This document shows positions 11,346-63,340 of a DNA stretch of 64,000 bases, one piece after another; positions within the stretch are counted from its first letter, which is position 1, and each line of letters begins with the position of its first letter. The notes under the pieces are model-generated. The model did no database searches and was not told the origin of the DNA. It saw only the letters and a program-made list of their open reading frames with translations. The stretch lies in assembly GCA_030068145.1 (NCBI GenBank), contig JAPJBO010000309.1, forward strand, positions 124,001 to 188,000. The letters are read 5' to 3'. Position numbers and translations under genes: made by a program. This DNA is from Diplonema papillatum (lineage: Eukaryota > Euglenozoa > Diplonemea > Diplonemida > Diplonemidae).

Positions 11346-11348
11346 TCT

Positions 11349-11590
11349 ATAAGTTGCCCCAGTTGGTCACTTGGAGGACCTTCGCCCAGGAGATGGGGGA
11401 GGAGGCCTCGGCGGAGCAGGCGGAGAGCTCCGGCTCGTTCTCGATGACGCCGAGGCGGAAGTTCGACAGCACGAAGCCCTGCTTCGTGCTCGTGTTGTTG
11501 CCCGGGCCCCGGTGCGGGCGCCGCGTGACGGCGGCAGCCGCTGCTGGCTGCCCACCGAGAAGTTGAGCAGCGCGTCGTGAGTCTTGTATC
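11349..11590 (-). pseudogene. Partial duplicate of RNF10-like exon 1
   Basis: Near-identical to exon 1 over 10717-10975 (residues about 10 to 92, ending just before the RING). The Gly-run codons are missing, which shifts the frame relative to the start, and the frame stops at once after WAKVLQVTNWGNL. It has no RING and no stable start. It is a head-to-tail fragment about 350 bp upstream of the gene's ATG. Few differences suggest a recent event. Confidence 0.85.
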
Positions 11591-27238: not shown

Positions 27239-28189
27239 TCCCGCCGGGGGGCCGCCGCGTTTCGCTCAGTTTCGAGGCTGATGTGCGCTTGTTTTCTTCT
27301 TTGTTTCTTCCCTCCCCCTCCCAACGACAGCAAGTGTCAGACTCGCCCACCCCAGGGAGGGTGGTTGTCTTTTTTTCTTTGTCGTGGCAGGGTTTCTCTA
27401 TAAGCGGGCGTTACTGTTGGGATAGGTGTTGGACTGGTTGTTGCTGAGTTGCTGGAGTTCCGCCGCCCCCTGCTCAACACAGCACCCGTCCCGTGTTTCA
27501 AGACGGGCAGTAGAAGATCGCTGTGTCTGACATGAGCCTGCGAGCGTTTAACCACGTCAGGCCAGCGGGAGCAAGGACGTTGTCCGAAGACGCCGACACT
27601 TCCCCTTTGCTGACGATGCCGCGGGTCTAGCTGGTAGTTCGATAGCTTTACACCACAGCCCGAACTCGACTAACAGGAAAGGGATGCGAAGTCAAGCACA
27701 CGGAGACACAGGACAACCTCCAGGGAGGACATGTTACGAAAAACCCCGAACCGAATGAGGACGAAACCGAACTCTCCGAAGCCGAACGCACCTGCAGGAC
27801 TTATCCCGAATTAGAACCCAAAACGCTGTCCGGGAACGTCCCAGAACAACTCGGCGACAACGACACGATGACGCCCCCGACCAGCCTGGAAAAGCACGAG
27901 GGACAAACGACCGAAGAAGTCTGCACGCCATTGACAGATTGAGAGCTCTTTCTCGATGAATTGTGTGGTGGTGCATGGCCGCTCCTGGTTGGTGGAGTGA
28001 GTTGTCGGGTTGATTCCGTTAACGAACCAGATCTCGACCCTTAAATAGGTGGGCGTGTCGTTGTATGGGGTGTCTTTTGGCATCGGCGGCTTGCTGCTTA
28101 CCCGAGACGCGCACTACTTCTTAAGGGGACTGCGCGCGACTTATAGCGCGCGGAAGAGCGGCGAAGGCGAGCGCGAAACGGTGTCCAAG
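27239..28189. other. Region upstream of YPEL exon 1B
   Basis: No supported gene. Direct YPEL-B upstream sequence is GC-rich (CCCGCCGGGGGGCC on the plus strand). ORFs here lack family resemblance. Confidence 0.4.
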
Positions 28190-28332
28190 AACAACACTGG
28201 CCTAGCCTGCACCACAACCAAACTGCCAAACAACTGGTTAATTAAACCACAGCATTTAGCTTCATCACAGCGGTGGCGAGTGGAATGTGACTTCTGCCCA
28301 GTGCCCTGAGTGTCAACGCTGAGAGATCAGGT

Positions 28333-28363
<31 letters not shown>

Positions 28364-28505
28364 TCTCTCTTAAGGTAGCCGAATGCCTCGTCTACTTAAA
28401 GACGCGCATGAATGGACCAATGAGATTCCTTCTGTCCCTACCTCTATCTGGCGAAACAGCAGTCAAGGGAACGGACTTGAAACTGTCAGCGGGGAATGCT
28501 TTTTC
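28190..28505 (+). rRNA. LSU (28S-type) rRNA fragment, probable pseudogene
   Basis: Contains TGTGACTTCTGCCCAGTGC, GCGCGGGTAAACGGCGGGAG, CTCTTAAGGTAGCC, GACGCGCATGAATGGA and AAGGGAACGGACTTG. This is the conserved domain V region in normal order, plus strand. It breaks off after CAGCGGGGA, where unrelated sequence starts. Several normally fixed positions are changed, so a functional gene is unlikely. Confidence 0.88.
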
Positions 28506-29339
28506 CCGGCACTCTAACAACTGTGCCACAACCAGCCAAACATGCTTTTCCCGGCAAGTAAGCTTTTTCTTCGACTTTCTCCAACAGCCCACCAATCGAG
28601 AACAGAACGAGATTACAGTCTTGACAGGGCAACTTTCCACCCAGTTGGCGCACAGAGCTAAGCGGCAAGGCAAGCGCACAACGAGGGATAAGAATAGCAG
28701 AGCAGCGGCGCGTACGGGAGAAGTATGAAACTGGCAACGGATGAGATATAAAGTTGAGAAAAACGGAAGGAAAGAAACGTCACGTAGCAAAAAGAAGAAA
28801 AAGAGGCGGTGGGTGAAAACACCACGTAAACCGTGCCGCGACCAATACACGTCTGTCTATGACAATGAGGCGTGCTTGACACACGCGAAACGGGTGCATG
28901 CTTATCAAGGTGCCACTCCCCTGAACAACTCCTCTGCTCTTGCCCACTCCTACGAAAGGAGGTGCGTATTCAGAAAAGAAAAAAACAAAGAAGGCAGAAG
29001 AGGGAAAACGAAGCGGCAAGGACACCCCGTGGAGACATATTATTCATTTTTTGTTCTTTTTTTTCTTGGAATCGACAAGCAACGAGACCGGGCGCCGGTA
29101 AAAGACGCGTTCTCCCTTGGCCAGTGTAGGTATGGTAGACAGAAACATTCCAACGAGACCGTTCCACGGCGCAAAGGAGGCTGTGATAACTTGGCACTAG
29201 CCTAGCCCTAAGCCTGTCACGGTCCCGTCCCCCCGACGAGAGTAGCGCTCAACTCTGCCCTTTCACGACTGCCGCTCGTCGGCGCGCGGCCCGGCGGAAA
29301 CGTGAAAATCGAGCGGGTGGATTCTGTGAATTCGACCAA
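28506..29339. other. Spacer between LSU and SSU fragments
   Basis: AG-rich plus-strand sequence with short ORFs of no known family. No gene is supported. The 29221-29339 part might be diverged rRNA 5' sequence but could not be aligned by eye. Confidence 0.35.
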
Positions 29340-29650
29340 GCCAATCGAGGCCCAGTTGGATAACAATGGTAACTCCATTGCTCATACATGTCCGAAGAAT
29401 TCAACACCATTCAACCCCGCGGCCTTAAAACCGCGGGGTCGAGGTGGATACAATTGACCGAGATAAGAACCAACGCTAGCAATAGCAGCGGTGTGTGGAT
29501 GAAACAGGTCAATCGAGTGATAGCACACGACTTCAAGTCGGTGCAAGCCCGCAAGAGCTTCTGTCCTATCAGCTTTTGACGGTAGTGTAGTGGACTACCG
29601 TGGCTGTAACGGGTAACGGGGAACTAGGGTTCGATTCCGGAGAGCAAGCC
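29340..29650 (+). rRNA. SSU (18S-type) rRNA fragment, 5' domain, probable pseudogene
   Basis: Recognisable in order: GGATAACAATGGTAACTCC, GCTCATACATG, GATAAGAACCAACGC, TCCTATCAGC-TTTGACGG, GTAACGGGTAACGGGGAA and AGGGTTCGATTCCGGAGAG. It ends after GGAGAG. The intervening variable parts are diverged. Confidence 0.82.
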
Positions 29651-34385: not shown

Positions 34386-34683
34386 CTACTCCGACACGAA
34401 CAGCTCGTTGCAGTCGTAGTCGTCCTCGATCTGGAAGGCGGCCGCGGTCGTGTGCCCGCCGCCGCCGTGCATGGTCGCCAGCTGGCTCACGTCCTTGCCG
34501 GCGTCGCACCTGAGCATGACGGCACGCCCTGCCACCACGCAGCCGAAGTCGACGCCGGGCAACCGGGCCAGCCTGTGTCCCAGCTCGTTCCGCGCGAACC
34601 TGAAGGGCAGAAGCTTCCCGCCCCGGTTGAGGTCCTGCTCCAGCACCACAACAGCAACCTTGAACTCCGGCGCCTTGATGAAC
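34386..34683 (-). CDS. DHH gene, exon 4 (DHHA1 domain and stop)
   Basis: After CCCAACACGCAG|. Its first base completes Arg869. Encodes FKVAVVVLEQ, FARNELGHRLARLPGVDF, MLRCDAGKDVSQLA and GGGGHTTAAAF, the DHHA1 hallmarks, then an acidic tail and stop. Confidence 0.9.
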
Positions 34684-37600
34684 CTGCGTGTTGGGCGGGG
34701 ATTCAATTTGTTTACCTGTTTGGGGCAGCAGGACACCTCGTCCAGGTGAGTAGCGTCACCTCCGCGATGCGAGCTGATTGCCGGCTGTATGCGGGCAACT
34801 GCACCTCCAGTACCACCGACACCCTCTGGGTGCTGCCAGGTAACGCGCAATCGGGGATTTTTAACTTTGAATTCGATATCCAAAGCCCGCACCCACGCGG
34901 CGTTGACTAGTTACCCCAAACCCACCGTCATCTAGATCCTTCCGAAATCCATCCAGCATCATTATAATGGGCTCAAGCAAGAACAAACGACCGCATTCCT
35001 TCCAAATTGTTGCAGATTAGTCTGAGTTTAATCAACGTACTGTCACGGCAGCCCTTTCAAAGACCAGCCACAGTAGATGGCAGTGGGATAGCCGCAACAA
35101 CTAGGTAAGTGCTGCCCCTGTGGGGAGGCCACCAGCGTCCGAGAAGGGGTGAAACAGGGAGTGCCTGCAGCCCTCGGCATCTCAGATGCGTCACCCCCAC
35201 TCAACACATCTAGAACTTTCCGCAGTTCATTCGTCACCAGCTTCAGAACCGTTCTGTGTGCCTCGCGAGCCAAACGGCCTTTGCTCCCGGAGCTCGTCCA
35301 ACAAGGTGGCCAGCACTCTCATTCTCTGGATGGTGTGAGGGTGGGGAGTGGTCGGGGAGGGGCCTGGATGGCTATTGCGTGATTGCGTGAGGTTTCTTGC
35401 CTATTGTCGCTTGTTCGCCATACTCCTAGCTGTTTGGTTCTCGAAACTGCAGTTGTGAGAGGCTTGGGCTTCCTCGGCAGCGTTGCGGGTCTTTCAGAAA
35501 CTTGCCGTTTGCGTTTTAGCATCCATTCCGTGCATATTGGCTCGTTCTAGGGCGTACAGGGCTCCATTTTCAGCCTCATTCTGGCTGCCTCTGGCAGTTT
35601 CTGCACATCTCCAGCAGTGGAAGCTTACGTCTGCAGGACCTTGACACGTGCAGGCCAGGCCAGGTTGACTCAAAAAAAACGGGTTTTATCTGCTACCACA
35701 TCATTCTAGCTGCACTCACAGGTGTCTGGGCAAGCAACTACCTCGGACCTGGAACATGGTTGTGGGGGGGTTCTGGCTAGTTGATCCAGTGGGCGGGGAC
35801 TGGTTGGTGATATTTTCAAAAAAAGCCTAAATTATCAGAAAAGGGTAGGCGGTTTTTTTTTTTTTTTTGGTCCATGTCCGCGCGCGCGTAATTTTTTGAA
35901 AACTCCCGGAAAGAACATTTCCGGAGTTGGGGCTTGCACTGATAAACGAAGCAACGGACGATCAGCATCAACTGACCAAAGGTGATGGAAATGATAAGGC
36001 AAAAGTTTCTTGTTCTTCGCGTGTACAGGGTATAAACCTCTCTGGGGGGGGTTTTCCTGTATTAGCACTTTTTCGTTGGCTTCGTTTTCTCTTTCATGTG
36101 CAACCGTTGTTCCGGTAATGTTCCCGTCAGTACAGATGTACTATTAAAAAAAAAACTTTTGCCAAAAAAAAACTTTTGGGATCTGTGTATTGGAACCGGT
36201 CGTGAGAGCGACTGCAGGCGTAGTCACGAGCGTGTCCGGCTCGGGAAAAGTCGAAAACCTGGACATCACACCGATACTTCACGGCGATGCATATCGCGTA
36301 GACGTTGTTTACCTCAGTGTGTATTGACTTTGAAGCCGACTATGCCCGGTGCTGGGTTGGTGCGCTGGGCAAGCAATATCGTGCTACTTTGACGTTGGTG
36401 TCAATCTAAACAGCAAGAGTTGCGTAGCTTTCGCCAGCTACTGCTGGACGCAGTCGAAGCACGCGGGATACAAGCACAGCCTCAGCCTCGAAAGTGTGCG
36501 CGGTTTTACCGGCAAGGCATGTCGGGAGGTTTTGCCGCTGTGGTGCGATTATCACACAGAACCAGTCCGGGGCAGTGCACGCGTCTATGCCGTCCGACGC
36601 CTGAAGCAGCTACTAGTAGGGACGTATCTGAGACTCGACTGAGGCGTTAAAACCAATTACCGTGTGCTAGAAGCATCTGCCCTCCGTGCGGATGTCGAGA
36701 CATCACTGGTCTCTTTCGATGGGGGTGAGGTACATCTTGTGAGTCCGGCGCTGTTCGTTACGCATGAGAAGGTGGCCAACTGGCTAAAGCTTGCTGACAG
36801 GAGGGTCGGCAGAGTACCGACAAACTTCGTTTACACCAAGCAGGGCATCTTTGTGTACTCGGGTAATATCGACAAAGCCACTACACCCGAAGTGACGGTG
36901 TCGACGTCCGCCTTTGGGGGTTTCAACAGCAGACCGCCGCAGAAGCCGCGAGAGCAACCATCTTTGCACAAGGTGGAGGAAAGCAGAAGTTGAAGTTCAC
37001 CATACTATCTGCGGGTAGCTGGCGCTTAATCTCGCCGATGGAAATGCCACCGACCAGCTGTCAGTAGGCTCTCGCACGGTGGTTCGGTAGGACCGTGACA
37101 TCGCAATGGGGCATGTCAGAAGAGAGATACCCGCACAATCGACAGTCCTCTGGGTCACTACTTTCTCGTTCGCGGCGTACCCAGCGAACCGCGATCTCGA
37201 GTTCAGACCCGAGTGTTTTTTCTCCCATGGCATCATCTATCCTCTGCAGCCTTCGACTATGGAAGGTTTTGTCGAAACACACCCCGTACGACTCCCCGCG
37301 CGTTCAGGACCGTTGAACTCTAGACTGCCACCGCAACCCCTCGGACACATCAAGTTCATCATCACACTCATCTTTGAGCTCATCGTCCAGGAATTCCACC
37401 AACAACGGGCACAAAAGTGCCAACAGCGGACCGGCCAGTAGTATAGCCGGCACATATGGTGTGACATCCAGTAGCAGAAAGTCTTGTGGCAAAAAAACTT
37501 TTTTTCCTGAAAAGTTTTTTTTTTTGCGCGCGCGCGCGTAAATTTCTCAGGGCCGACGGACATGGGCCAAAAAAAAAAAAACCGCCTACCACCTGGTCCA

Positions 37601-40600
37601 GACAAAAATATCGGGGAGTTTCGGGGAGTTTCGGGGAATTTCGGGGAATTTCGGGGAGTTTCGGGGAGTTTCGGGGAAATTCGGGGTATTTCCTTTGTGG
37701 CGACCACTTTCCCTGCAGCCGGCCTTGGCGAAGACGGGGAGGGGGCTACGCTATTATGGCCCTACCTTGCGCAGAGCGGTCCCGTGTTTGGCTATGCCCC
37801 GAAGACGAAGATAGAGGCTGAGAAGGAAGGACAGACTGGGAGGTACAGGTTGGCACGGTTTGACACAGGTAGCGACAGGATCCGCTGCGGCAAGGAGAGC
37901 AGGAACTGTTCCACCAGAGGTCGTGCGGGTACAGAGACAATGCTCGTGCTCGAGTCGCAGCTGGGGACGAACAGGCACGCCTTCAATGATGAGGTCTGGG
38001 GGATGGACGTATTTTCCACGTATGGGCGGACGTGCTGGTGGGACGCCTTCGAAGACGGCACCTCCGGCAAGAAGGGGCAGAAGAGGGTAAATTTAGTGGG
38101 CGGCGGAGACCCAGTGCGACGAGAGAGTGTGCACGAGACATCACAAAGCGAAATGCGAAGAGTGCAAGCATCGGCAAGCGTCGGTAGCGCGCTGCTGCCG
38201 AGGCACACCACGCGACAGGGGACGGCCTCGCCGTGAAGTAATGCGAGAAGCACAGGATGACGCAGTGCGGGACGTGCAAGACGATCGCGGAATGCTGCAC
38301 ACCGCGGATGCCTGCCTGCAGCACGATATGCCGATGTGCGGAGTCGGCGGCAAAGAGACGGAAGCGCGGGCCTTCGCCCCTGGGGACGCCCGAAGCGACA
38401 CCGAAGTCGAGACGCAGGCTGCGACCATCGGCCCAAAGCGCCACAAGGGAAGCGGCGGATGCCGGCGCCAACACCGCCATCGAGAACGCCGAAGACAAGG
38501 CGACGACACTAGGACGGCCGCTGCAACGAAGCGGCGGCGTAAGGACTCGCCATCATCGAAGACAGAGACGTGCACTCCGCGGCGGGCAGAGGTCAAGATA
38601 AGGTACCAGTGACGAAGAGAGGTAGCACGAAGAGGTAGTCACGAAAGAGAGCAGATGCAGATTATCGCCACAGGCTCTTTGCATGCTAACCCTAACCACC
38701 AGGACCAGGGGCAGCTACGGTCGAAGACGGCAATTCGAGCGAGGAGTAAGGTTGATAACCAAAATGAGAGGCACGATGGCCATCCGAAAGCAGGGTTGCA
38801 GGATGATGCTTGGCCAAGGATACGGTTGCTATGGCGACTGGGACAGAGAGATAACGCAAGATAGAGAGTCCTCCTTATGGGGTGGTCACACCTTCGCAGT
38901 CCCAGGGCCTCCACCCACCTGCATACGGTCGTCGACTGACCATTCCCGAGACGAGTTGGAATGCGGGTACCATCTTTCCGGAGATTTCCGGTTCCTCCCG
39001 TACTCTACAACTCCCCACATAAGTGAACGTGGACTCCGAAGTGGACACTCCTTTCAACCGGGTGCACGAATTCAGAATTCCGGGATGGGTTGACCCACTG
39101 TTTCCGATGCGGCTTCCAATCATCGAAGGCTAAACTCGGGTGCAGGAGCGGTGCTCGTCGTTCGGGACCAGATGGGGGACGACTGGGTCTGCCCGGTTTA
39201 CACGTGACTGCTGCAGCGTGGGCAGAAGTGGGAAGGTCATCGGGAGATGGCGGGCGCGAATACTTTTTGCCCAAACCAAAACCCAAGAGGGGATTGGAGA
39301 GTTTGACATAAGAATGGCAAACTCGTGGTACCGAAGGTTGCAACCGCAAACAGAAGAGTCAGATGATGGTTGAACCTGCGCACATGCACACGACGCGTCC
39401 TGTTCAGACGCCTCCCTGTGTCCAAGGACTCAAAGGCAGGTCCTGCAGGTTTTCCAGCAACTGCTGGTTCGCCTTGAGGCCCTCCGAATCCGCAGGCTGA
39501 AGGGTGTGCCTCAACAACTGCCCAGGAGTCCAAGCTACAGTTGGTAGATGCATCCGGTTTGTAGAGGAAGAGGATCGGAGGAGGAGGAACACGGACGGCT
39601 CAAGAGAGCCGCGTCCGAAGCACACTAGCACACCTACCTGCACACCTCACCCACTTGCCCGCACCCGTCACCTGTTCACCCATCCACCGACCTGCCCACC
39701 ACCCATCTGTCCACTCAACTACCAACCTGTACACCTGCCCACCCACCGGCAGCCCCACTTTTTCCACAAAAATCGGGCTGAGTATCGGGGAGTTTCGGGG
39801 AGTTTCGGGGAAGTGTCGGGGAGTTTCGGGGAACTTACCAGGAGCCCGGACCAGGTGGGCCTACCCTAATAAAAAGACTCGCACATGTGCAGTTAAGCTG
39901 CAGGGCCTACAATTTAACCCCATACGGACGCGGGGAACGCTGGGCACTAAGTCATCGACTGAGGGGATGATCTCTCAGGTTCACAACGGGGCAATAGCCT
40001 CGTACAAGTGTTCGTCGTCGTCAGTCACTAGCGTTGGTCTTCGAAACGATCTCGATATTTTGTGTCGCACGCTGCCCGACTACTCGCTCTTGGTCCCTAA
40101 CAATGCATGAAACTCTTTTCTCCGCTTCTTATTTCCATTTCTCCTCTGTACAGTTCCGGGAGTCGGGGAGGGCGGGCAAAGTAAAAAGCTCACTGAACCC
40201 CCCCCCACAACGTGAGACCGTAAAAACAAGAGCAATTTACCTTATAGCCAGCAGGTACAATTGAAATTCCCTAACAGCCAGCAAAAACAAATTTATTTCC
40301 CTTCGAGCCAGCAAAACAAATTTAATTCCCTTCGAGCCATCAGAACAAATTTAATTCCCTTACAGCCAGCAAAAACAAATTTAATTCGAAAAAAAACAAA
40401 TTTAATTCCCTTCGAGCCAGCAAAAACAAATTTAATTCCCTTATAGCCAGCAACAGCACTTTTTCTTGGAATTTTCACATTTTCCGGATGTAGGCCTATT
40501 TTGGCCATTTTTTGCCATTTTGGCCGATTTGCCCATAGTTTCGCCTATTTTGGCCTCTGTTGCCGGGTTTAGACTTTGGCCATTGCCTCCAGATTTTGCT

Positions 40601-43600
40601 CATAATTTGCAAAGTGCATTTCCCTGACAACATTGAAGAAAACAATTTCCGACATTGCCGTTGACAGGCACTGGTCCCCTACAGCACTGATCACTCCCCA
40701 GGAGCAATCAGTATTCTTACTTCATCAATTCCAGCACCATAATCAAACTCACTGTACATCAATTCCAGCACCATAATCAAACTCACTGTATAATCAAGGC
40801 GCTTCCTTTTGATTCAGAAAGGATTCATGTCCGCGCGAACCCCCTACGGCACTGTAAAATGTAGGGGGGCCTAATCCTATTGCATGTTCGCGTGTTTCAC
40901 AATAACCCGGTCGGTTCCTCCATATGTACAGGCTTGCTTTTGCACGCATGTGTATCCTTTTTCAGGGTGTGCTTATCCCTTCCATCCCTTTGCTTAGTTC
41001 GTGAGCCATGATTGTTTCGTCAAAGGCATGCATCCTGGCAGGTATCCCCTTTTTTTTTTGGGAGGACAAAGCGGGAAGGGGGGGGTTAATATTGCATCAT
41101 CCTGCGTAAAGTCATCTGCTCTACGATCAACAGAATTCGCTCTCTAAGTACGGAGTCAAGTCTCGTCTGTATACGCGATGCGGTTTACCGAAGCCATCGA
41201 GCGCCACGGCCAGGGATGGATACGTTTACTCGCTGATCGATGCTACGGCAGTACAGCAAACCCACTATGCAGCCTGAGTTCAGCCCCGCGCACCTAGCGC
41301 TCACAAGGCAACCCATGATCACTTCAGTGTGAGGGATCAGTCCTGACCGAGCCTAATGCCTGCCGGGCGCCTGCTCCGTTGCGGTGTTTTGAAAACTAGG
41401 TAACTTTGTGCTCAGCGGTCCTACGAATCATGTTCCACGTCCTGTGATTCGTACTTTCAAACTTAATGCCATGAATCATGTTCTACCTCCTGTGATTCGT
41501 GTGACTTTTAACAATCTTGTCATTTCGCCCCCACTCCTTCCTACAGCAGGACAGGTCCTGCTCTGTGGGCAACCAATGTTTTCTCACCCAGGCTGGTAGA
41601 ACTGGTCATCCTGTCCAGGCGTCCAGACTGGTGGGACTGGTGTGGTCAAGCTGTCCAGGCTGGTGGACTGTTCTATAAGGGAATTAAATTTGTTTTGCTG
41701 CTGGCTATAAGGGAATTAAATTTGTTTTGCTGGCTGTAAGGGAATGCAATTGTTTTTGCTGGCTGTTAGGGATTTAAATTTGTTTTTGCTGGCTGTTGGG
41801 GAATTAAATTTGTTTTGCTGGCTGTTAGGGAATTAAATTTGTTTTGATGGCTCGAAGGGAAATACCCCTAAAAACAAAGAACGAACCCGAACACGAAAAC
41901 AAACAACGCGCCAAAGGATGGCGACGGGGAGGCACAAGGAACCACCTCACCTGTTCTCAAGAACTAACCCGAGACAGGTATCCACCGTACCGATAACCGA
42001 TGAAAAAGGTCAATACCGGCGGGTGGTGACGAGGGACATCCATTCGTGCACTTGTTCTTCGAGGTCAATCTCGGCCAGCTCGCCGGCCTTCAGAATTCGG
42101 CCCACGACGTCGTCTCCCTGTGAAAATGTGTGTACGGCTGTGAGCAAACGGCTGCTGCGAAGTGCGCCTGGAAGTGCGGAATGCAGGAGTCGGCTCCGTT
42201 TTCGTTTCCATGTTTTGAAAAAAAGACAGGCGCTTCGTTTTGTTTGTGCGTGCCGGTTGATATTTTTTCTGAAGTGAAGGGCAACCCGCAAGATTGTTAG
42301 TACTAAAAAAACAGATGGAAAAACGTTCACTTGCCGTCATAGCCCCAAGCTAGGTTAATGTACTGCTTCTGCTACGCCTCTCGGTGAAGAAGCAGAAAAA
42401 GATGCGTAGGTTTGTTGTATTCTTTTACTTGTTAGTTGTCGACAACTTGTTTTGTGTTGAGGTGTCATTCAGATGTAAATCTAAAGCCGACCACGTCAAA
42501 TTTTGTTAAGCATTGAGTTCTTTTAAGTACATGAACCACATGGATTAGCATGCACTTTATTGTTAAGCATTGAGTTCTGTGAAGTGCAAGTGCCATCAAG
42601 GCAGGCGAGCACTGTTCACGGGCTAGTGTTACTTTACGATTTCGTCCGTCGGGAGAATCAACGACGATGAGGATGAACTGTTCATGTGTTAAGCAGCGGC
42701 TGCCAAAACTTACCGTGACACCTATGATCAAAGTAAGTAGGACCTCGTAGCTCGCTGGGTTAGGCGCGCCAGGTAGGTGCTATGTACAGCTTCTGCTGCG
42801 CCTTCCTCGGTGAAGAAGCAGAAAGAGAGAAAGAGAGACGAGTTGGATGGCAGGACCATCTCTCCGCCCAGGAAAGACACTGACGCCAGCCTTCGACGCT
42901 GAGCACATTGTCTGTGTGTCTGCGTGGTCGACACGGCAGTTTTTCTTTCGGCTGCACCCTTGGTCACTTGCTTCATCGACATCGGGATCTGTCTCTGGGT
43001 GTTCTTAACCAGCACCCCTCCCCGGAGTGTCAGGCTTACTCTGAAAAAAGAGAAAACGCAGAGTATCGTAGCGGAGCAGCAGCTCCTCTAAGCAACCTAA
43101 ATTGTAATACTTTGAGTTCCAGTCCTGCAGGCAACCGCCGAAACTGTTTGTACACAGCCGACATGTTTTTCAGAGTTAAAGTTCGCTTGAGATTCCGGAA
43201 TGTTAGGGTCACCCGGGGACCTCTGTTAACTTGTTTGTGTCTGTGTGGTCACCTGGTTTGGTAATTAAAAAAACAGTATGCTGCCAACCGTCACTTTTTG
43301 ATGAATGACAACCGCGTTTGTTACTATAAAACAGTACACCCTCCGTTAAGTGGCTGGAGCATACCCGCGAGATAAGCGTGTGGACCTTCTTCAAACAGCT
43401 GTGCACGAACTTAAACGTCGCTGGGCCGGCACACGTGTGGCGAGGCAGTGCGAAGCCTCCCTCGTCGAACTCTTCCGAAAACGGGAAAACCTGAGCGGGT
43501 GTGTCGGTTCACGCTAGGTAAAGCGAATGATTGGAGGCATCGGGGAAATCGCTTCCTCGACCCATTCTCAAACTTTAAATGGGCGTGAGCTCGGGGTTAC

Positions 43601-46600
43601 TCGACTCTAAGTGGGACACTTCTGGTAAGCAGGACTGGCGACGTGGGATGAGCCGAGAGCTGACTTAAGGTGTCCGAGTGATCGCTCTACCTACTATCTG
43701 GCGAAACAGCAGTCAAGGGAACGGACTTGAAACTGTCAGCGGGGAAAGAAGACCCTGTTGAGTTTGACTCTAGTCTGACTTTGTGCAGTGACACGAGAGG
43801 TGTAGGATAGGTGAGGCCGCAACAATGAAATACCACTACTCTTGTTGTCGCTTTAATTTTCCAATGATGGGAAGACGGCAGCTGCTCCCTTGTGGGCATC
43901 AGATCCCACAAAGGGTGTCGGTTCATCTTGACAGCAGGACGGTGGCCACGGAAGTCGGCATCAGACCATCCGATAATGAGTGTGTAACAACTCACCTGCC
44001 GAATGCACCGGTCCCGAAAATGGATGATGCTCAAGCGATCCACTGTAGCTGGTTTCACAAAACAAAGCCAGGCATGGAGTGTGTGGTCAACGCCGCGAAG
44101 TCGTTGGCGTGACCCTCGATGGAGCGTGGATGAGCGCAAATCTTGGTCGTAGTAGCGAATAATCAACGGAGAACATTTTGAAGGCCGAAGGGGCGATTCA
44201 ACCCTTCCTTTACCTGCACGGGGAACCCTCTGAGCGTGGTGCGGGTAATCGGGGGTCCTTTCCCCGGTGGGAAACGGGAAACACGGAGTGCAAGACTCCG
44301 CGGGTAGAGTATGAACCCTTGAGGGACTCGTCCTCTTCTCATTTTTTTCCACCGCGGTGGTGTTGTGTGCACCTCGTGTCATCGTCTCGGATTTCGCTCG
44401 TCGAATGCAAACCAATCCAACGTTGAAGCTCATCAGCGGGTCCTTTGGACGGGGGGACTTTCGGTCCTTTTCTGGTATCAATGTTTTTCGCATCCTTCCT
44501 TCGTCGAATGCAAAAAGGGGGGTTAGATTCCGACAGCCTGGTTGCTGGCATTCGCAACTTTCCTGTGCTCCTTTTGGTCTTTCTGAGCCCAAAACGCCTC
44601 AAAAAAAATTTCGCGCCTGCGGCGCGCTCTACTCAGTCTACCTGGCAGTACCAGTAGGTCAGGTGAAAAACCGCGCCGTGCGCGGCAAACTATGCCGTGC
44701 GGCCAAGAGGGGGGGGGGGGGTCGGTAAACAATGTTTACCAAAATGTTTTTTACACCTTCCCTTCGTCGAATGCAAAAAGGGGGGGTTAGATTCCGACAG
44801 CCTGGTTGCTGGCATTCGATTTCGATCTCGGAGGACCCGAGCTGTGCACAAGGTGAAGATGCATCTGACTCCTCGTGGGCACGGCACTGTCGCTTCTCAC
44901 CAGCAGTCGCGCCTCTGCTGAGGAAAGAGCTAGGTAAACATACGTCGATGCCGATAGCCCATCGTCGCGGGATAGGGTACTCGATTCCGAACCGGCCGAG
45001 GTCGACTTCGCTAATCAGCGAGAGGAACATCGGGATTTTGTCGTGTTTGACCTGTTTTATAAAGGGAACGTTCGCTTGAGATCCGGGGGTTTTACAGCCG
45101 GGTGACCATCGTCGGGTGACCGTCGCAAGGGTTCCTTTAAGGTATCGTGAATTAGCATGCTCGTCTTTTTTACATGAGAGGAATTCAGTTCAGTACACTC
45201 ATAAAGCCGTAGATTCAGTTCTACCACTTTTAAAGCCATGAATTCACCCCCTAACGCGTTTAGGGGGTGTTTGGGATTGGGTAGGGTGTGTTCGGTCTGC
45301 TTCGGCATGCAAGCTTTTTAGGGAGCGCTCCTTTTCCTATTGTAACTACACGGTGAGGTCCAGCCGCAGAAGCTGGAGTGAAAGCTGCAGTTGAAAAAGC
45401 GGGTGTCACACCCGCTCTTCTGGTGTGGATTGACACGCGTTTTGGTTGTAGCACACCCGCTTTTCGGGTGTGACTCGAGCACCTTCTTTAACTCCAGCTT
45501 CTGAGACTGGACCTCGCCGTGTAGTCACATCCTCGGTTCTTGCGACGATTACACATTCGTTAAGAATGTGGTCGCGGACCCCTATTTTCAGAGTTAAAGT
45601 TCGCTTGAGAACCCGGAGTTTAGAGTCTCCGGGTGACTTTCGTCGAATGGACTCTTTTTAGAGTTATAGTTCGCTTGAGAATCCGGGATTTTAGAGTCTC
45701 CGGGTGACTTTCGTCGAATGGGTTCTTTTAAAGCTATTACGGGTGGGTTTGGGGGGGCGTGCATGGCTTCTTTCGTGTACACCTTACTTGGTCGCTTTGG
45801 CGAGTCAGGTTCGAAACAATTTGTGACCGACACCAAGTTCTCGCCAGGTTAGGTGAGTGTTCTTGGGCTCCCCACGTCTTACAAGTTGAGCAGGAGTTGC
45901 CCTGTAAACCGTATCGGTCCATTGTTCGCACCATGGCTCTAAGTAGAGTAGAGTGTTTTTAGCCAGACTTGTCTACCAATTGTGTTCATTGACAGGTTTA
46001 CATATCATCCATTGCTTCTAACGTACTAAGTACGTGTCGAGGCTATTTCTCTTCGCTGCCTCAGCAGTGTTGCTATTGGGCAATTTGCGTACCTGCTGCC
46101 ATCCTTAGATGTGGTAGTCGTTTCTCAGGCTCCCTCTCCGGAATATCGAACCCTAATTCCCCGTTACCCGTGCCGCGTTAGCTAGCACGTACTGGGGGTT
46201 TTTGAGGGGGCATACATGGCTTCTTTCGTGTACACTTTATTGGCTTGCGTTGGCAAGCCCGGTTCGTAACAACGTGTGACCGACACCAAGATCACCAGGT
46301 TTTTAGAGTTAAAGTTCGCTTGAAATTCCGGGGGTTTAGGGTCTCCGTGTGACCGTTCATGAATGGGTTCTCTTAGAGCAAGAAAGGGCTATGTGGTTAC
46401 GGGTTGTATATTTAGTGCACGCTTTCGTTATGGGTTGTGGCTAGCCATGTCCGGGACTGTTTGTTTTTGTGGTATGACTTCCTCCTTTCTGGGCTCTAGA
46501 GGTTCTGTGAGCACTGTGTTTCGGTCCTTGAAACAGAAGGCGGACCATCATCAGCAGAGCCTGAGTCCGGTTGGTCAGGCGGCTATTCCCCGGGCACCAT

Positions 46601-49600
46601 TGCTAACCATAGCCTGTAAACCACGGTATGTTCACGGAGCATGCAAGTTAGCTAAAAGCTCCGTTGGAGTCTTCATCCTTCAAAGTTAAAGTTAGAGTAA
46701 ATTTGCTACCCTGGTTTATCTTGTTTTCAGAGTTAAAGTTCGCTTGAGATTCCAGGAATTTAGGATCCGTGTGACCTTTGTTAAATGGAAGTAAGGGCTA
46801 CATGGGTGTGGGTTGTTTCTTTGGTTGTGCACACTTTCATTGTGAGTTATGGCTAGCCACGTCCGGGACTGATTGTGACCGACACCACCGTTTTTGTTTT
46901 CAACCTACTTTTTCTAGGTGCCGTGGAGGAGTCTCGCAGGTGACTACCTGTGACACCCACCCTGGGTGTCCCAGGTTTTACCCAGTCTGTCAAATACCCG
47001 TTCCAGCTTTAGTCCAGTTCAACATGATTCCAACTACGGTGTATGTAGTAGATTATTATGAATAAGGATTCCAACTACGGTGTATGTAGTAGATTATTAT
47101 GAATAAGGATTCCAACTACGGTGTATGTAGTAGATTATTATGAATAAGGATTCCAACTACGGTGTATGTAGTAGATTATTATGAATAAGGATTCCAACTA
47201 CGGTGTATGTAGTAGAGTATTATGAATAAGGATTCCAACTACGGTGTATGTAGTAGATTATTATGAATAAGGATTCCAACTCCGGTGTATGTAGTAGATT
47301 ATTATGAATAAGGATTCCAACTACGGTGTATGTAGTAGATTGTTGTGAATAAGAAAAGGCCACACGTTCAGCCAGGACGGCCCGTTGAGGACGGCGGTGC
47401 GGCAGAACTCCCAGGCGAGGGTCGCGGCGCTGAAGTCGAGGTCGAAGCGGACCACGTCGGCGTTGCCCTCGCAGTTGATGCGCGAGCTGCTGGCGTGGTG
47501 GTCGATGATGAGGAGCGACGCGGTGGCCTTGAGCACCTCCCGCATTTTGGCTTCGCCGTACGCGACGTCCACCAACGCCACGTTTTTGCCGGTCAAATCG
47601 GGAATCGCGCCTTCCTCCGCGGAGCTGTTCACGGGGACGAACACGATCTCATCGCGATGCGCCCCCGCCGCGTTGTATATCGCGTACGCGGCACCGATCC
47701 CGTCCCAGCACGAAGAGTGGAAGAGCACGACGTCGAGCTCCCACGGGTTCTGGCCCGGGTTGGGCGGCGCCACCGTCGGGACCTTGAAGTTTTTCGGGTA
47801 CTCCGCCAAGGGAAGCTCTTCGAGGGACTTGGGGAGGATGATGAGGTCGGTTGCGAGGTTGGGAGTCGGGTCTTCGACGGGCGCTGCCGGCGGGGACTTT
47901 AACTTGAACGACACGCGCGCGCCGAGGCTGATGTTGTGGGTGGTGGAGCCGTGGCTGAATTCGACCTGGGCCGGCAGGTCGTGTTGCGGCTTCCGTATGT
48001 CGTCCCGGGGTGTGATGACCCCGCTCTTCTTGTCGGCGTGCAGGTCGGACACGACGCCGATATACCGCTTGTCGTCCGCCTCAGGCGGGGTAATCGACAC
48101 CGCCGTGCAGTACCGCTGCATGGACAGCTTGAACTGCACTTTGATCCCCGTCCGCATCTTCAGCCCCCGGCACTGCGAGCCGTACCACGACACGACGGAG
48201 TCGAGCGTCTCGCGCACCTCCTTCGACTCGATCGTGCCGGCGTTTTTTTCGCGGTCGTAGGTCTGCACGATGCCGGTCAGCACGCGGTCCGCAAATTTTT
48301 CAATCGCGTCGGGCTTCATCTCCGACGGGCGGGTCTTCGGCGGGGCGTAGCGCGCAGCCCGCGGCTTCGCGCTGCCGGCGGGGGGTGCGGTGGCGGCCTT
48401 CGGGAAAAAGGACGGCGCGGTCGCATCGAGGGAACTGATGCTGCCGTCCGGGTTGCGGAGGGTCGTTTTCGACGAGGTGAAGGAGGGCGCGGAGGCGTCC
48501 AGGGCGCTGGAGGTGACGAACGCGGGGGCCGCGGCGTCCAGGGCGGGCATGCTCCCGTCCGGGTTGCGCAGCGTCGTTTTCGACGCGACGAACGACGGCG
48601 CCGCAGCGTCCAGGGCGGGTATGCTCCCGTCCGGGTTGCGCAGCGTCGTTTTCGACGCGACGAACGACGGCGCCGCAGCGTCCAGAGAGCTTGCGCTTCC
48701 GTCCGGATTGCGGAGAGTCGGCTTCGCCGCCGACGTGAACGACGGCGCCGATGCGTCGAGCGAGCCACCGCCCCCGTTTGGGTTGCGGTGAGCCTGCTTC
48801 GACGCGACGAACGACGGCGCCGACGCATCCAACGCACTGGACGTGCCGACGCTCCCGTCCGAGCTGCGGTGGGTAGGATACGATGGTGCTCCGCCACCGT
48901 CCGCGCTCTGAAGAACGGGGTTCGTAGCGGAGAAGGCGGGGGCCGTCACGTCGAGCGTGCTGACGCTCCCGTCCGGGTTGCGCGGGGGGTGCTTGCCCGC
49001 GGCGAACGCGGGTGACGCGGCGGACAGCGGGGCGGGCGTCCCGTCCGGGTTGCGAGCCGCGTCCGCCGGCACGGAAGAAGAGGTGGGATGCGCCGGGTAC
49101 GGGCCCCTGCCGTCGGCCGGCAGCGGGCCGGTCGGCGAGTAGGCCGGGTGCTGCTGCGGCGCGTACGCCGCGGCGCCGCCGTACCCCCCCCCTTGCTCGG
49201 ACCGCATCCAGCCCCCCCCCCGCTGGCCCTGGCCCTGGCCTTGGTACTGGGAGCTGTACCCGTTCGCCCCGTCCCCGTAGCCGGCGCCCCCGTACGGGTA
49301 CCCGCTGCCCGCCGGCGCGTACGGTTGGTGGTACGTCGGCTGCTGCTGGTGGGGCTGCGCCGCCGCACCGGGGTACTGCTGGCGGCCGTGCTGCGGCGGC
49401 GGCGGCGGCGGCTGCTGCTGCATGCCCATCTGCGGGTACGCCCGGTCGAACTGGCTGTGAGGCGCCGGAGAGTAGCCGTTGTGGGCGGGCGGCTGCGAGT
49501 AGCCGTTCTGGTGGGGAGGGGCTGAGGCGGGGAAGGCGGCGTTCGGGGACGGGCCGCCGTAGGCCCCCGGGGGCTGGGAATAGCTGGAGTCGCTCAGGTC

Positions 49601-49762
49601 ATACGGAGACCACTGCGGGTTGGCTGGGGTTTGATGTGGTTGATGAGCTTGGTTGTAGGCGGGTTGGAACGCCGCGGGGCCCTGCTGCGGCTGACCGTAG
49701 TGCATCATGCAGGGGCCCTGGAAAGGCGCCTTACTATGCCCTGGTCCTCGTCCGTCCCTCAC
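34386..49762 (-). CDS. DHH-DHHA1 phosphoesterase-like protein, four exons over 15.4 kb
   Basis: Exons 49762-47366, 45051-44944, 42117-42017 and 34683-34386 (2397, 108, 101 and 298 bp) join in frame to 967 aa. Introns are 2314, 2826 and 7333 bp; donors GTGTGG, GTATGT, GTATTG; acceptors ACAG, ACAG, GCAG. Residues 1-230 are Pro/Gln/Gly/Tyr-rich. Residues 235-455 are tandem RNPDGS-x4-LDA-x-APSF repeats. About 495-625 holds two cold-shock-like starts (GIVQTYDREKNAGTI, GVVSDLHADKKSGVI). The DHH domain has H682-SSC-W-D687-G, D732, DHH at 754-756 and FD-LDFSAA; exon 2 supplies the EVDLGRF block; exon 4 the DHHA1 end with GGGGH (942-946). DHH-DHHA1 enzymes are metal-dependent phosphodiesterases acting on small nucleic acids or nucleotides; substrate unknown. 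The start may lie at a later Met (19 or 20). Confidence 0.87.
35043..35330 (-). pseudogene. Decayed coding-like segment in DHH intron 3
   Basis: Minus-strand frames read MRVLATLLDELREQRPFG and, one frame shift later, LAREAHRTVLKLVTNELRKV. Both look protein-like and adjoin, suggesting a frameshifted ORF from a mobile element. Family unknown. Confidence 0.3.
35843..37592. mobile_element. 1.75-kb TIR element TE1, copy 2
   Basis: Starts GGGTAGGCGG plus T tract, TCCATGTCCGCGCGCGCG, and ends with the mirror (CATGGGCC, A tract, CCGCCTACC). It keeps about 430 bp in the middle that copy 1 lacks and has one unit of the 32-bp repeat. Its left part (35935-36130) matches 59500-59690. No target duplication is obvious. 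Located in DHH intron 3. Confidence 0.75.
36349..36993 (+). pseudogene. Broken ORF inside TE1 copy 2
   Basis: One frame runs from 36349 to 36993, with in-frame stop(s) just after 36640. Pieces: FDVGVNLNSKSCVAFASYCW, EVLPLWCDYHTEPVRGS, LVSFDGGEVHLVSPALFVTH and VPTNFVYTKQGIFVYSGN. A preceding frame has KVENLDITPILHGDAYRVDV. No transposase motif is recognised; it could be an element protein or captured host sequence. Confidence 0.4.
37610..37695. repeat. GTTTCGGGGA tandem repeat
   Basis: About eight 10-bp units directly right of TE1 copy 2. The same repeat is at 39782-39835 in the same orientation, followed by a CCGGACCAGGTGGG segment that mirrors CCACCTGGTCC at 37590-37600. Confidence 0.8.
37700..38612 (+). 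pseudogene. Frameshifted ORF with C-x2-H-x4-C-x2-C repeats
   Basis: A frame from about 37700 to 38236 (DVFSTYGRTCWWDAFEDG region) is followed, in other frames, by zinc-like motifs: CTRHHKAKCEEC (38127), CEKHRMTQCGTC (38246) and a damaged third, CLQHDMPMCGVG. The spacing C-x2-H-x4-C-x2-C is the same in the first two, but they are in different frames. Looks like a decaying repeat-zinc protein. No family named. Confidence 0.35.
38640..40246. other. Part of DHH intron 3 without recognised gene
   Basis: Pro/Thr-type simple sequence at 39630-39760 (CACCTGCCCACC-like repeats) and the GTTTCGGGGA repeat at 39782-39835. ORFs here do not show motifs. Confidence 0.4.
40247..41867. mobile_element. Foldback-like element with tandem-repeat inverted ends
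   Basis: Left end: about seven imperfect 30-bp direct units (CCAGCAAAAACAAATTTAAT plus TCCCTTCGAG). Right end (41680-41867): the same unit in reverse, about six copies (AAGGGAATTAAATTTGTTTT). The 1.2-kb middle has TTTTGGCC runs and no clear ORF. Ends made of tandem repeats are typical of Drosophila FB elements. It stops about 150 bp from DHH exon 3. Confidence 0.75.
42017..42117 (-). CDS. DHH gene, exon 3 (101 bp)
   Basis: Between CATTTTCACAG| and |GTATTG. Starts in phase 0 (GDDVVGRILKAGELAEIDLE) and ends in phase 2 inside an Arg codon that exon 4 completes. It matches the helical linker between DHH and DHHA1. Confidence 0.82.
42490..42735 (+). repeat. Dispersed repeat with nested insertion
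   Basis: Same as 18890-19010 but with an extra segment about 42555-42690, which is related in reverse to the unit at 52500-52740 (AGTGCAAGTGCCATCAAGGC, GAGCACTGTTCACGGGCTAG). Confidence 0.75.
43160..43240 (+). repeat. Dispersed repeat R1 core
   Basis: TTTTTCAGAGTTAAAGTTCG, TTGAGATTCCGGAATGTTAG. In DHH intron 2. Confidence 0.8.
43500..44205 (+). rRNA. LSU rRNA fragment with segments out of order, probable pseudogene
   Basis: Three parts. 43500-43688: AAAGCGAATGATTGGAGG, TTCTCAAACTTTAAATGGG, GGTAAGCAGGACTGGCG. 43689-43897: CGAAACAGCAGTCAAGGGAA, AAAGAAGACCCTGTTGAG, GAAATACCACTACTC, which normally lies far downstream. 43898-44205: GACAGCAGGACGGTGGCCAC, GTGTGTAACAACTCACCTGC, GAAAATGGATGATGC, TTGAAGGCCGAAG, which continues the first part. 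Plus strand, inside DHH intron 2, antisense to the host gene. Confidence 0.85.
44206..44943. other. Rest of DHH intron 2 (left of exon 2)
   Basis: TTCCTTCGTCGAATGCAAAA followed by a G tract and TTAGATTCCGACAGCCTGG occurs twice (about 44498-44556 and 44759-44818), a direct repeat about 260 bp apart. No gene seen. Confidence 0.55.
44944..45051 (-). CDS. DHH gene, exon 2 (36 codons)
   Basis: Between TAAAACAG| and |GTATGTTTAC, phase 0 at both ends. Encodes KIPMFLSLISEVDLGRFG and a segment ending AIGID. It corresponds to the conserved region after the DHH core that usually reads Y-I-x-D-R-D-L-W. Confidence 0.85.
45346..45531. mobile_element. Palindromic MITE-like element
   Basis: Inverted arms: ACACGGTGAGGTCCAG with AGAAGCTGGAGT, mirrored as ACTCCAGCTTCTGAG and CTGGACCTCGCCGTGT. 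The centre has two AAGCGGGTGT/ACACCCGCTT pairs. Related pieces are at 30603-30690 and 16643-16660. No ORF. In DHH intron 1. Confidence 0.75.
45584..45960 (+). repeat. Two R1 copies in tandem, long second form
   Basis: Cores at 45588 and 45652 (TTAGAGTTATAGTTCGCTTG, GAATCCGGGATTTTAGAGTC). The second extends through TTTCGTGTACACCTTACTTG, GAGTCAGGTTCGAAACAAT and GTGACCGACACCAAG, the same extension as at 55438-55660 and 46210-46290. Confidence 0.85.
45961..46180 (-). rRNA. SSU rRNA fragment, minus strand, probable pseudogene
   Basis: Read on the minus strand: GTAACGGGGAATTAGGGTTC, GGAGAGGGAGCCTGAGAAAC, TACCACATCTAAGGATGGCA, GCAGG-ACGCAAATTGCCCAAT and ACAATTGGTAGACAAGTCTGG. It overlaps the 3' end of the 29.3-kb fragment by about 40 bp of the gene and continues towards the 530 region. 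It lies in DHH intron 1. Confidence 0.85.
46297..46470 (+). repeat. Dispersed repeat R1, long form
   Basis: Core plus TGGGTTCTCTTAGAGCAAGA, GTTACGGGTTGTATATTTAG and GGCTAGCCATGTCCGGGACT. A further core with a similar tail is at 46725-46890. Confidence 0.85.
47026..47353. repeat. 41-bp minisatellite, exactly eight units
   Basis: Units GATTCCAACTACGGTGTATG plus TAGTAGATTATTATGAATAAG, nearly identical. The array ends 11 bases from the DHH exon 1 donor. Confidence 0.95.
47366..49762 (-). CDS. DHH gene, exon 1 (799 codons)
   Basis: Low-complexity N-terminus, repeat region, cold-shock-like part and most of the DHH domain. It ends GGCTGAAC|GTGTGG in phase 0. Only 11 bases of intron separate the donor from a 41-bp minisatellite. 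Without splicing the frame runs into that repeat. Confidence 0.93.
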
Positions 49763-50564
49763 GCTTTTTCTTTCTTTTTAGTCGGCGTTTTGTTTATTTA
49801 TTTTGTTGGTTCCTCTCTCTTTTTCTTTTTAATGATGGATGGCGCCGATGATTTCGTTTCTGCTTCGTACTTCTTTATTTGGGTGGTTCCGCCTCTTTCT
49901 TTTGCTGTGGCCCCCGCCTTCCTCTGACCCCTGCAGAGTTGTTGAGCTTCGCGAAGCGGGCGTACCGAGTTTGCATAGGATGGTATCTATTTTTACGTCG
50001 GCACATAAACCCGATAGTGGACAGTGCGGTTTCGCTCGGAACGTTCCCGGGATACCCGTGTGAACAGAAAGAGGGAGAGAGACGGGTCGGAGTGCAGGGA
50101 CCATCTCTGCGAGGAGTCTCCGGTCGCCTCACTGCTTCCCCGTACCCAAGAAAAATCTCGCGGCGCGAAAGCGCAACATTCCGAGAATGGAGCTGGATAA
50201 CACCAGCCCCACCACCACACCATCTTCGTCATCGTCTTCGTCCACATCGAGATCGTCTTCGGACGACGGTATCAAGTGATCCCAGCCTTTGACAATGCAA
50301 GCCTATCCCTTGTGGTACCTGCATTTCAAGTTCACACTGCTACCCCGTACTGCTAGTGGGCGTAGGTCGGTGCTCCCCCCCGCGAGACGGGCTCGCCCAC
50401 CAGCCAGAACGGCCCCGGCTGTGCCAACTGAGGAAGAACTGACCTGTACAGGATCCAGGCCTGGCTCCTGGCTCCACATGCTTGCACAGCAAGCCTGTGG
50501 AAACGCCACAAGGGAGGAAGTGCCCATCCCGCCGTCCTAGCCCGCACCGCGCCTCCGACGGAAC
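49763..50564. other. Upstream region of the DHH gene
   Basis: Pyrimidine-rich on the plus strand just before the start (TTTTTCTTTCTTTTTAG). A copy of the GAGA/GACCATCTCT repeat is at 50070-50120. No core promoter could be assigned. Confidence 0.4.
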
Positions 50565-60810: not shown

Positions 60811-60839
60811 CTCATGCGGGCGGCAGGGCAGAAGTCGGG

Positions 60840-62885
60840 CAGTAATAGTGGCGTCGAGTTCCCCAGATGGCTCGTAGCCGCAGAAATAGTGGCGTCGAGT
60901 TCCCCAGATGGCTCGTGGCCGCAGAAATAGTGGCGTCATGTTCTCCAGATGACTCGTGGCCGCAGAAATGGTGGCGTCGAGTTCCCCAGATGACTCGTGG
61001 CCGCAGAAATAGTGGCGTCATGTTCTCCAGATGACTCGTGGCCGCAGAAATAGTGGCGTCGAGTTCCCCAGATGACTCGTGGCCGCAGAAATAGTGGCGT
61101 CGAGTTCCCCAGATGACTCGTGGCCGCAGAAATAGTGGCGTCGAGTTCCCCAGATGACTCGTGGCCGCAGAAATAGTGGCGTCGAGTTCCCCAGATGACT
61201 CGTGGCCGCAGAAATAGTGGCGTCGAGTTCCCCAGATGACTCGTGGCCGCAGAAATAGTGGCGTCGAGTTCCCCAGATGACTCGTGGCCGCAGAAATAGT
61301 GGCGTCGAGTTCCCCAGATGACTCGTGGCCGCAGAAATAGTGGCGTCGAGTTCCCCAGATGACTCGTGGCCGCAGAAATAGTGGCGTCGAGTTCCCCAGA
61401 TGACTCGTGGCCGCAGAAATAGTGGCGTCGAGTTCCCCAGATGACTCGTGGCCGCAGAAATAGTGGCGTCGAGTTCCCCAGATGACTCGTGGCCGCAGAA
61501 ATAGTGGCGTCGAGTTCCCCAGATGACTCGTGGCCGCAGAAATAGTGGCGTCAGTTCCCCAGATGACTCGTGGCCGCAGAAATAGTGGCGTCGAGTTCCC
61601 CAGATGACTCGTGGCCGCAGAAATAGTGGCGTCGAGTTCCCCAGATGACTCGTGGCCGCAGAAATAGTGGCGTCGAGTTCCCCAGATGACTCGTGGCCGC
61701 AGAAATAGTGGCGTCGAGTTCCCCAGATGACTCGTGGCCGCAGAAATAGTGGCGTCGAGTTCCCCAGATGACTCGTGGCCGCAGAAATAGTGGCGTCGAG
61801 TTCCCCAGATGACTCGTGGCCGCAGAAATAGTGGCGTCGAGTTCCCCAGATGACTCGTGGCCGCAGAAATAGTGGCGTCGAGTTCCCCAGATGACTCGTG
61901 GCCGCAGAAATAGTGGCGTCGAGTTCCCCAGATGACTCGTGGCCGCAGAAATAGTGGCGTCGAGTTCCCCAGATGACTCGTGGCCGCAGAAATAGTGGCG
62001 TCGAGTTCCCCAGATGACTCGTGGCCGCAGAAATAGTGGCGTCGAGTTCCCCAGATGACTCGTGGCCGCAGAAATAGTGGCGTCGAGTTCCCCAGATGAC
62101 TCGTGGCCGCAGAAATAGTGGCGTCGAGTTCCCCAGATGACTCGTGGCCGCAGAAATAGTGGCGTCGAGTTCCCCAGATGACTCGTGGCCGCAGAAATAG
62201 TGGCGTCATGTTCTCCAGATGACTCGTGGCCGCAGAAATAGTGGCGTCGAGTTCCCCAGATGACTCGTGGCCGCAGAAATAGTGGCGTCGAGTTCCCCAG
62301 ATGACTCGTGGCCGCAGAAATAGTGGCGTCGAGTTCCCCAGATGACTCGTGGCCGCAGAAATAGTGGCGTCGAGTTCCCCAGATGACTCGTGGCCGCAGA
62401 AATAGTGGCGTCGAGTTCCCCAGATGACTCGTGGCCGCAGAAATGGTGGCGTCGAGTTCCCCAGATGACTCGTGGCCGCAGAAATAGTGGCGTCGAGTTC
62501 TCCAGATGACTCGTGGCCGCAGAAATAGTGGCGTCGAGTTCCCCAGATGACTCGTGGCCGCAGAAATAGTGGCGTCGAGTTCCCCAGATGACTCGTGGCC
62601 GCAGAAATAGTGGCGTCGAGTTCCCCAGATGACTCGTGGCCGCAGAAATGGTGGCGTCGAGTTCCCCAGATGACTCGTGGCCGCAGAAATAGTGGCGTCG
62701 AGTTCTCCAGATGACTCGTGGCCGCAGAAATGGTGGCGTCGAGTTCCCCAGATGACTCGTGGCCGCAGAAATAGTGGCGTCGAGTTCCCCAGATGACTCG
62801 TGGCCGCAGAAATAGTGGCGTCATGTTCTCCAGATGACTCGTGGCCGCAGAAATGGTGGCGTCGAGTTCCCCAGATGACTCGCGG
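60840..62885. repeat. 41-bp minisatellite, about 50 units
   Basis: Units GCCGCAGAAATAGTGGCGTC plus GAGTTCCCCAGATGACTCGTG, very homogeneous, with sparse variants (TCATGTTCTCC, AATGGTGGC). No stop occurs in the minus-strand frames, so ORFs of up to 670 codons result with a 123-bp (three-unit) period. No sign of a gene. Confidence 0.95.
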
Positions 62886-63340
62886 CCGCGCGCAAGGCAA
62901 TGTCATAAAGGCGGAGACACTGCCGCCAAGCCAATTCCACGCTCCCATCAACTTTTGCCGGCCACAATGAGGGGGACCCTGCTCCTTTCACCCGCCCCAG
63001 CGGATACGCGTCAGCCACATCGAGGATACAAATGTAGCCCTACCCCGTATTGCGTAGTTCTTGCGTACGTCGTTCTTTTTCGTTTTTCGAGGGTACCACG
63101 AGTCCTCTTTATTCTTTCGGCTGGCAATTGCCGAGTGGTATCATTTTTTTGGCCCTAGCTTGCACGCTGGGAGTAGGAGTGGTGGTTAGGCAATAATTTG
63201 AACTTGGAATGTAGCAGCAATCGATGGCGATGGTTTGGGTTTGAATGCAAAGAATCTGGTGGTGATACTCTGCATCGCCGACGGCGCGGTTGTCTCTTCG
63301 CACGTGATGTGTCATGCTTTCGCCTCTTAAGCTCGTCTTG
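62886..63340. other. Region between minisatellite and LINE
   Basis: 63200-63340 is a copy of the 3305-3650 type repeat (AATCTG-x-GATACTCTGCATCGCC, CTCTTCGCACGTG). No gene seen. Confidence 0.5.

Follow-up and report, generated by a model that had tools for sequence, protein, structure and literature searches.

The window analysed here, a 64,000-nt stretch of the genome of the marine flagellate Diplonema papillatum, carries a DHH core and a DHHA1 end in open reading frames that lie far apart on the minus strand, which raises the question whether these are two halves of one gene or separate pieces. We consider it highly likely that they belong to one intact, single-copy diplonemid nuclear gene, stretched by repeats in its introns, for a putative NrnB-like DHH-DHHA1 nuclease from a family already known to clear RNA. 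The features of the locus are collected in Table 1.

Exons, introns and start codon

The first-pass annotation had assigned four blocks on the minus strand to this gene (49762-47366, 45051-44944, 42117-42017 and 34683-34386, i.e. 2397, 108, 101 and 298 nt), and a check of the sequence found all of them in place. GT and AG are present at all three introns, the reading frame is kept across the joins, and the last intron splits an Arg codon between exons 3 and 4 as CG/G. The length of 967 aa given for the product had to be corrected: joining from 49762 does yield 967 aa and a stop, but the first ATG lies at 49708, and the four-exon product is then 949 aa long. The open frame of exon 1 begins after a stop at 49778-49780 and holds no ATG before 49708, so that the GTG at 49762 is no credible eukaryotic start. 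An AG at 49719-49718 lies shortly upstream of the ATG, where a trans-spliced leader would probably be added.

Counted from ATG 49708, the gene extends over 15,323 nt, and its introns measure 2,314, 2,826 and 7,333 nt in the four-exon model. The earlier description of about 81% of the gene as intron made of repeats was accurate for the non-coding share (81.4% under the four-exon model), but repeat content was sized for part of the introns only. Likewise, the distance of more than 7 kb given for the two domains matches the largest intron, whereas the stretches matched by Pfam DHH and DHHA1 are ~12.9 kb apart. With one further candidate exon (43490-43365, see below) the product would reach 991 aa. 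Altogether, the gene model needs the ATG start and probably one more exon; by conventional cis-splicing, four exons or, with a slight preference, five would yield a protein of 949 or 991 aa.

Table 1. Features of the DHH-DHHA1 gene and associated repeats (positions in the window)
Feature	Position	Strand	Description
Exon 1 from first ATG	47366..49708	-	781 codons; low-complexity N-terminus, repeats and DHH core; open frame, GT donor
Two weakly cold-shock-like segments	48298-47885	-	within exon 1, before DHH core
Intron 1	45052..47365	-	2,314 nt; donor GTGTGG off-consensus, acceptor CAG
Tandem array	47026-47353		intron 1; 41-bp x 8
18S rRNA piece	45933-46272	-	intron 1
302-bp high-copy repeat	45655-45956		intron 1; begins where an 18S piece ends
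Exon 2	44944..45051	-	36 codons; CAG..GTATGT
Candidate exon	43365..43490	-	126 nt, 42 codons, phase 0-0; CAG..GTATGC; GC3 0.74
Exon 3	42017..42117	-	33 codons and two bases; CAG..GTATTG
Intron 3	34684..42016	-	7,333 nt
Tandem arrays	40240-40453 and 41676-41861		intron 3
2.27-kb mobile-element-like repeat	37589..39858		intron 3; high copy
Exon 4	34386..34683	-	DHHA1 end with LRC..DVSQLATMHGGGGHTTAAAF; stop codon 34388-34386
rRNA pieces	27929-28190, 28231-28423, 29312-29639, 43471-44136	+	

Homology and copy number of the two halves

When compared with Pfam, exon 1 matched DHH (E 2.1e-4, 22.0 bits; core at about 47734-47366) and exon 4 alone matched DHHA1 (E 7e-4, 20.4 bits; weaker in the joined 967-aa protein, E 0.013), but both scores stay under the curated cut-offs of 28.1 and 25.9 bits, respectively. 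An NrnA-type model of NCBIfam gave 13.5 bits against a cut-off of 350.

Relatives were sought by pattern-matched stretches in IMG/VR and GTDB, of which 428/480 and 353/445, respectively, encode relatives, and the best 80 were kept from each. The match ran from residue 5 or earlier to residue 275 or later in 79 of the 80 kept viral loci and in 77 of the 80 kept GTDB loci. A first profile, built from the viral relatives (77 of the 80 after length selection), scored the joined protein at 121.2 bits, exon 1 at 89.2, exon 4 at 33.1 and exons 1 and 4 together at 119.7; exons 2 and 3, neither of which matches a Pfam family, thus add 1.5 bits to the full profile score. With a larger profile, to which the 80 GTDB loci were added, the joined four-exon protein reached 129.4 bits. 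Exons 1 and 4 are collinear with prokaryotic and viral relatives (129 bits), and the family order of the blocks was recognised correctly from the start.

A protein search of the 271-Mb genome (271,365,524 bases, 2910 contigs) returned four matching places only, which are the four exons themselves (4/4 candidates scored), and the region before the DHH core matched only itself. The Pfam DHH search of the whole genome gave no match although the gene is present; family searches of this kind therefore miss divergent genes. Alignment scans recovered distant prokaryotic and viral relatives only, and two single-protein viral scans for close relatives found none. Using tblastn, 41 phage and 2 plasmid records were obtained, none of them covering 80% of the query, and a sequence search of the PDB found one DHH family chain (E 6.7e-4).

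The motifs HSSCWDG, LVDVAY, DHH and GGGGH are all present. In the five-exon protein the DHH signature stands at residue 736 and GGGGH, the GGGH signature of the DHHA1 domain, at residue 966, and both align with the relatives. The DHH part was predicted at a pLDDT of 71-94 per 10-residue block. Since each half occurs as a single copy, on the same strand and in the same order, and is collinear with the relatives, the assignment to one split DHH-DHHA1 gene is well supported at the sequence level.

That exon 1 instead ends one gene while exon 4 represents a second gene or its remnant seems improbable. The slight gain in score from exons 2 and 3 and their lack of a Pfam match would fit such an arrangement, as would the co-transcription presumed for gene clusters of D. 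papillatum (PMC10161547). However, the halves complement each other within one family and follow in the correct order on the correct strand, no other copy of either was found in the genome, and the codon usage of exon 4 is strongly coding (rank 1). Disruption by insertion of a mobile element, leaving a pseudogene, is very unlikely: high-copy repeats do lie within the gene, but they are intronic, all exon frames are open with coding-like codon usage, the catalytic motifs are preserved, and the genome search turned up no intact copy at another place. We give still less credit to an assembly error that put unrelated pieces on one contig, since the pieces, though embedded in a repeat-rich stretch, share one contig of 237,021 bases and fit one family in order and frame.

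Support for the small internal exons

In the favoured model of a single intact gene, exons 2 and 3 are supported by codon usage and by lineage splice signals, and hardly by homology. Codon usage was scored with a table trained on the RING-finger gene (9156-11252) and with a second training to which exon 1 was added; among the 142 non-overlapping AG..GT segments, exons 3 and 2 took ranks 4 and 5 with the former, and ranks 3 and 4 with the latter. The segments ranked above them were 38508-38212 and 39496-39430, which both lie within the 2.27-kb high-copy repeat; the first table also placed above them the candidate exon, as a segment that ends at 43365. The introns contain 35 CAG..GTAT open segments in 41 frames (shuffled mean 34.65, i.e. 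no excess over chance) and one CAG..GTATGT open segment (shuffled mean 2.26). When these 41 frames were ordered by codon usage, the top three were exon 2, exon 3 and the candidate exon in both trainings, and segments overlapping none of the three scored at most 0.2. The GC3 of exons 2 and 3 (0.75 and 0.76) is lower than that of exons 1 and 4 (0.91 and 0.93).

All acceptors are CAG. Among the donors, GTATGT and GTATGC fit the diplonemid intron consensus as given in the cited part of the source, (G)/GTATG..CAG (PMC12621601), GTATTG does so nearly, and GTGTGG of exon 1 does not. For comparison, 4/5 introns modelled in two Hsp90 paralogues end in CAG and 1/5 starts with GTAT.

In the family profiles, exon 2 came 2nd to 54th among 764 candidate segments, and the rank of exon 3 lay between 37th and 169th of 617-707, varying with profile and test; the profile ranking was not decisive as proof of either exon. 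Flat GT/AG spliced alignment was too permissive as an exon test: it kept the acceptor of exon 2 in 3/3 settings, took a donor lying 27 nt ahead of the exon 1 donor, did not choose exon 3 in any setting and used other acceptors for exon 4. In one alignment with relatives (A3), exon 2 carries a P and a D that are invariant in all 11 rows, and the joint of exons 3 and 4, VTTR/RFI, falls in the linker, where close relatives show TRR..I; other alignments place the linker differently. The proposed bridge of two small exons is supported by frame, GT/AG, codon usage and lineage splice signals, but homology hardly tests exons 2 and 3, and one exon was probably missed. Exons of ~100 nt in repeat-filled introns appear to be recoverable by codon usage and lineage splice signals where homology is too weak.

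For the missed exon we lean towards the candidate at 43490-43365. Its rank among all CAG..GT segments was 3rd of 86 with one codon table; the other table put it 6th of 87, behind 36600-36556. The latter lies in intron 3 and is a short open CAG..GT segment whose codons are coding-like (8.1 and 7.2 in the two trainings).

A gene of four exons only, with the candidate segment as part of an intron and a 949-aa protein, has in our estimation somewhat less than an even chance. Including the segment makes no difference to the full profile score (129.2 bits, vs 129.4 without it), and the best single domain was clearly higher without it in 3/5 profiles (117.0 vs 89.6, 110.4 vs 85.7 and 109.3 vs 82.2); its sixth rank in one of the two trainings also favours leaving it out. 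On the other hand, the segment has consensus CAG..GTATG sites, phase 0-0 and coding-like codons, and no second copy of it was found among 40 scored of 448 candidates in the genome, though it directly adjoins a high-copy repeat that occupies its flank down to 43506. The NrnB clades moreover differ in linker length, according to the cited section on these enzymes (PMC12709177). A profile search for an extra exon was set aside; the best of its 228 candidates, 43409-43365, is the tail of the candidate exon, and its 128.7 bits fall within the range of 20 shuffles (127.4-132.6).

Intron repeats, predicted function and neighbouring features

Tandem arrays, pieces of rRNA and a copy resembling a mobile element would have enlarged the introns and left the exons untouched. 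For the 2.27-kb repeat, 39 other places were found among the 40 scored of 7,957 candidates, the best pieces being 92-99% identical, and two of its ORFs gave no match when tested against Pfam. Runs of a TTTCGGGGA-like 10-mer lie near both ends of this element. The 302-bp repeat was 98-100% identical at 37/39 other scored places (17,097 candidates), which points to recent spread. The window holds five rRNA pieces, three of 18S and two of 28S, and two of the five lie inside introns of the DHH-DHHA1 gene. Over 231 nt, 39 other scored places (of 840 candidates) share 98-99% identity with one of the 18S pieces; two contigs contain pairs of 18S-piece matches 7,630 bases apart, and the rDNA unit published for D. 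papillatum is ~7.6 kb long (PMC10161547).

The cited passages of the same genome paper describe GT-AG introns with a median below 1 kb and a longest validated length of 72 kb, transposable elements within long introns, ~3600 dispersed 28S pieces, and repeats next to genes which disturb automated annotation (PMC10161547). The present gene resembles the long-intron genes described there in its GT-AG introns with mobile-element-like sequence, its scattered rRNA pieces and the repeats beside it. Its introns are longer than the five modelled in the Hsp90 paralogues (379-1,620 nt), but 7.3 kb against 72 kb is nothing out of the range given in those passages. Because long introns with transposable elements were already published for D. 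papillatum (PMC10161547), the repeat-stretched anatomy is ordinary and expected in this organism.

From its intact motifs and homology the product is predicted to be an NrnB-like nuclease. As in NrnB (COG2404; PMC12709177), DHH is followed by the GGGH signature with a linker between them, and identity to the relatives, which are NrnB-type DHH-DHHA1 nucleases, was 25-33% in A3 (ten viral relatives) and 23-32% in the IMG/VR and GTDB scans; the protein reads SAA where relatives mostly have SGA. It differs in ~650 extra N-terminal residues encoded by the same exon, whereas NrnB is described in the cited section as a standalone DHH-DHHA1 protein, in the sense of 'widespread examples' and not necessarily the only ones (PMC12709177). 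Since this standalone architecture is not what was found here, we call the protein NrnB-like and not NrnB. With RecJ/Cdc45-type proteins it shares the DHH domain, and structural comparison ranked archaeal RecJ-Cdc45 chains as best matches to the exon 1 model, a Helicobacter protein also being one of the nearest solved folds, but 0/461 structural matches fell below E 0.001 and Pfam found no RecJ-specific domain. In such an enzyme, metal would be bound at the DHH motifs, the DHHA1 lobe with GGGGH would close over short RNA, and mononucleotides would be released from it as by NrnB enzymes.

Apart from this anatomy, the locus stands for a divergent NrnB-like protein of a eukaryote, whose N-terminus is long and of low complexity, and the gene model of this diplonemid NrnB-like nuclease is now corrected. 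Should the enzyme clear short RNA, it would give access to this step in organisms noted for extensive RNA processing. A literature search for diplonemids and nanoRNases gave no paper joining both among the matches listed, and term counts found no mention of DHH in the main text of either the genome paper on D. papillatum (PMC10161547) or the diplonemid mitochondrial proteome paper.

The N-terminus encoded by exon 1 is of low complexity, rich in P, Q, Y and G, and is followed by 24-aa NPDGS..LDA.APSF repeats. A cold-shock-like reading of part of this region is weak. Each of the two segments aligned to a two-sequence cold-shock profile over 51-52 columns with 31% and 37% identity, at a probability of only 16-17%. 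Pfam CSD gave 14.5 bits (E 0.033) for both segments together, below its cut-off of 27; the first segment alone had E 0.24, behind two unrelated families, and the second alone gave no match. No alignment between the two segments was obtained, and a PDB search found no chain matching the region. Structure prediction lent no clear support to the five-stranded beta barrel of a cold-shock fold: the first segment was modelled as helical at a pLDDT of 59-74 by block, the second reached 27-40, and a run without alignment also began with helices (mean pLDDT 34.8). We regard it as rather doubtful that a eukaryotic NrnB-type nanoRNase gained an N-terminus with repeats and prion-like character, plus two RNA-binding segments of the OB/cold-shock type, and became an RNA-granule enzyme capturing and clearing short RNA; if true, this would place an RNA-granule nanoRNase in an organism with extreme RNA processing. 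A literature search for DHH, DHHA1 and cold shock domain together found no paper.

Elsewhere in the genome, Hsp90 genes are clustered, with five places on contig C1095 (49057-62338) and two on C1381 (37234-41881). Among PDB chains, the Hsp90 N-terminus comes closest to three that bear the name heat shock protein 83 or 83-1, which we take to be from Trypanosoma and Leishmania. A search of the genome for light-harvesting families gave no match, which is weak evidence of absence since the family search there also missed the divergent DHH gene. Within the window, a 41-bp minisatellite at 60839-62889 consists of 50 copies at 97% and is open in several frames. The RING-finger gene extends over 9156-11541 (PF00097, E 1.6e-6), and ~190 bp of its 5' part are repeated upstream at 96% (10714-10903 and 11351-11541), which resembles the repeats of gene 5' regions in the cited passages on D. 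papillatum (PMC10161547).
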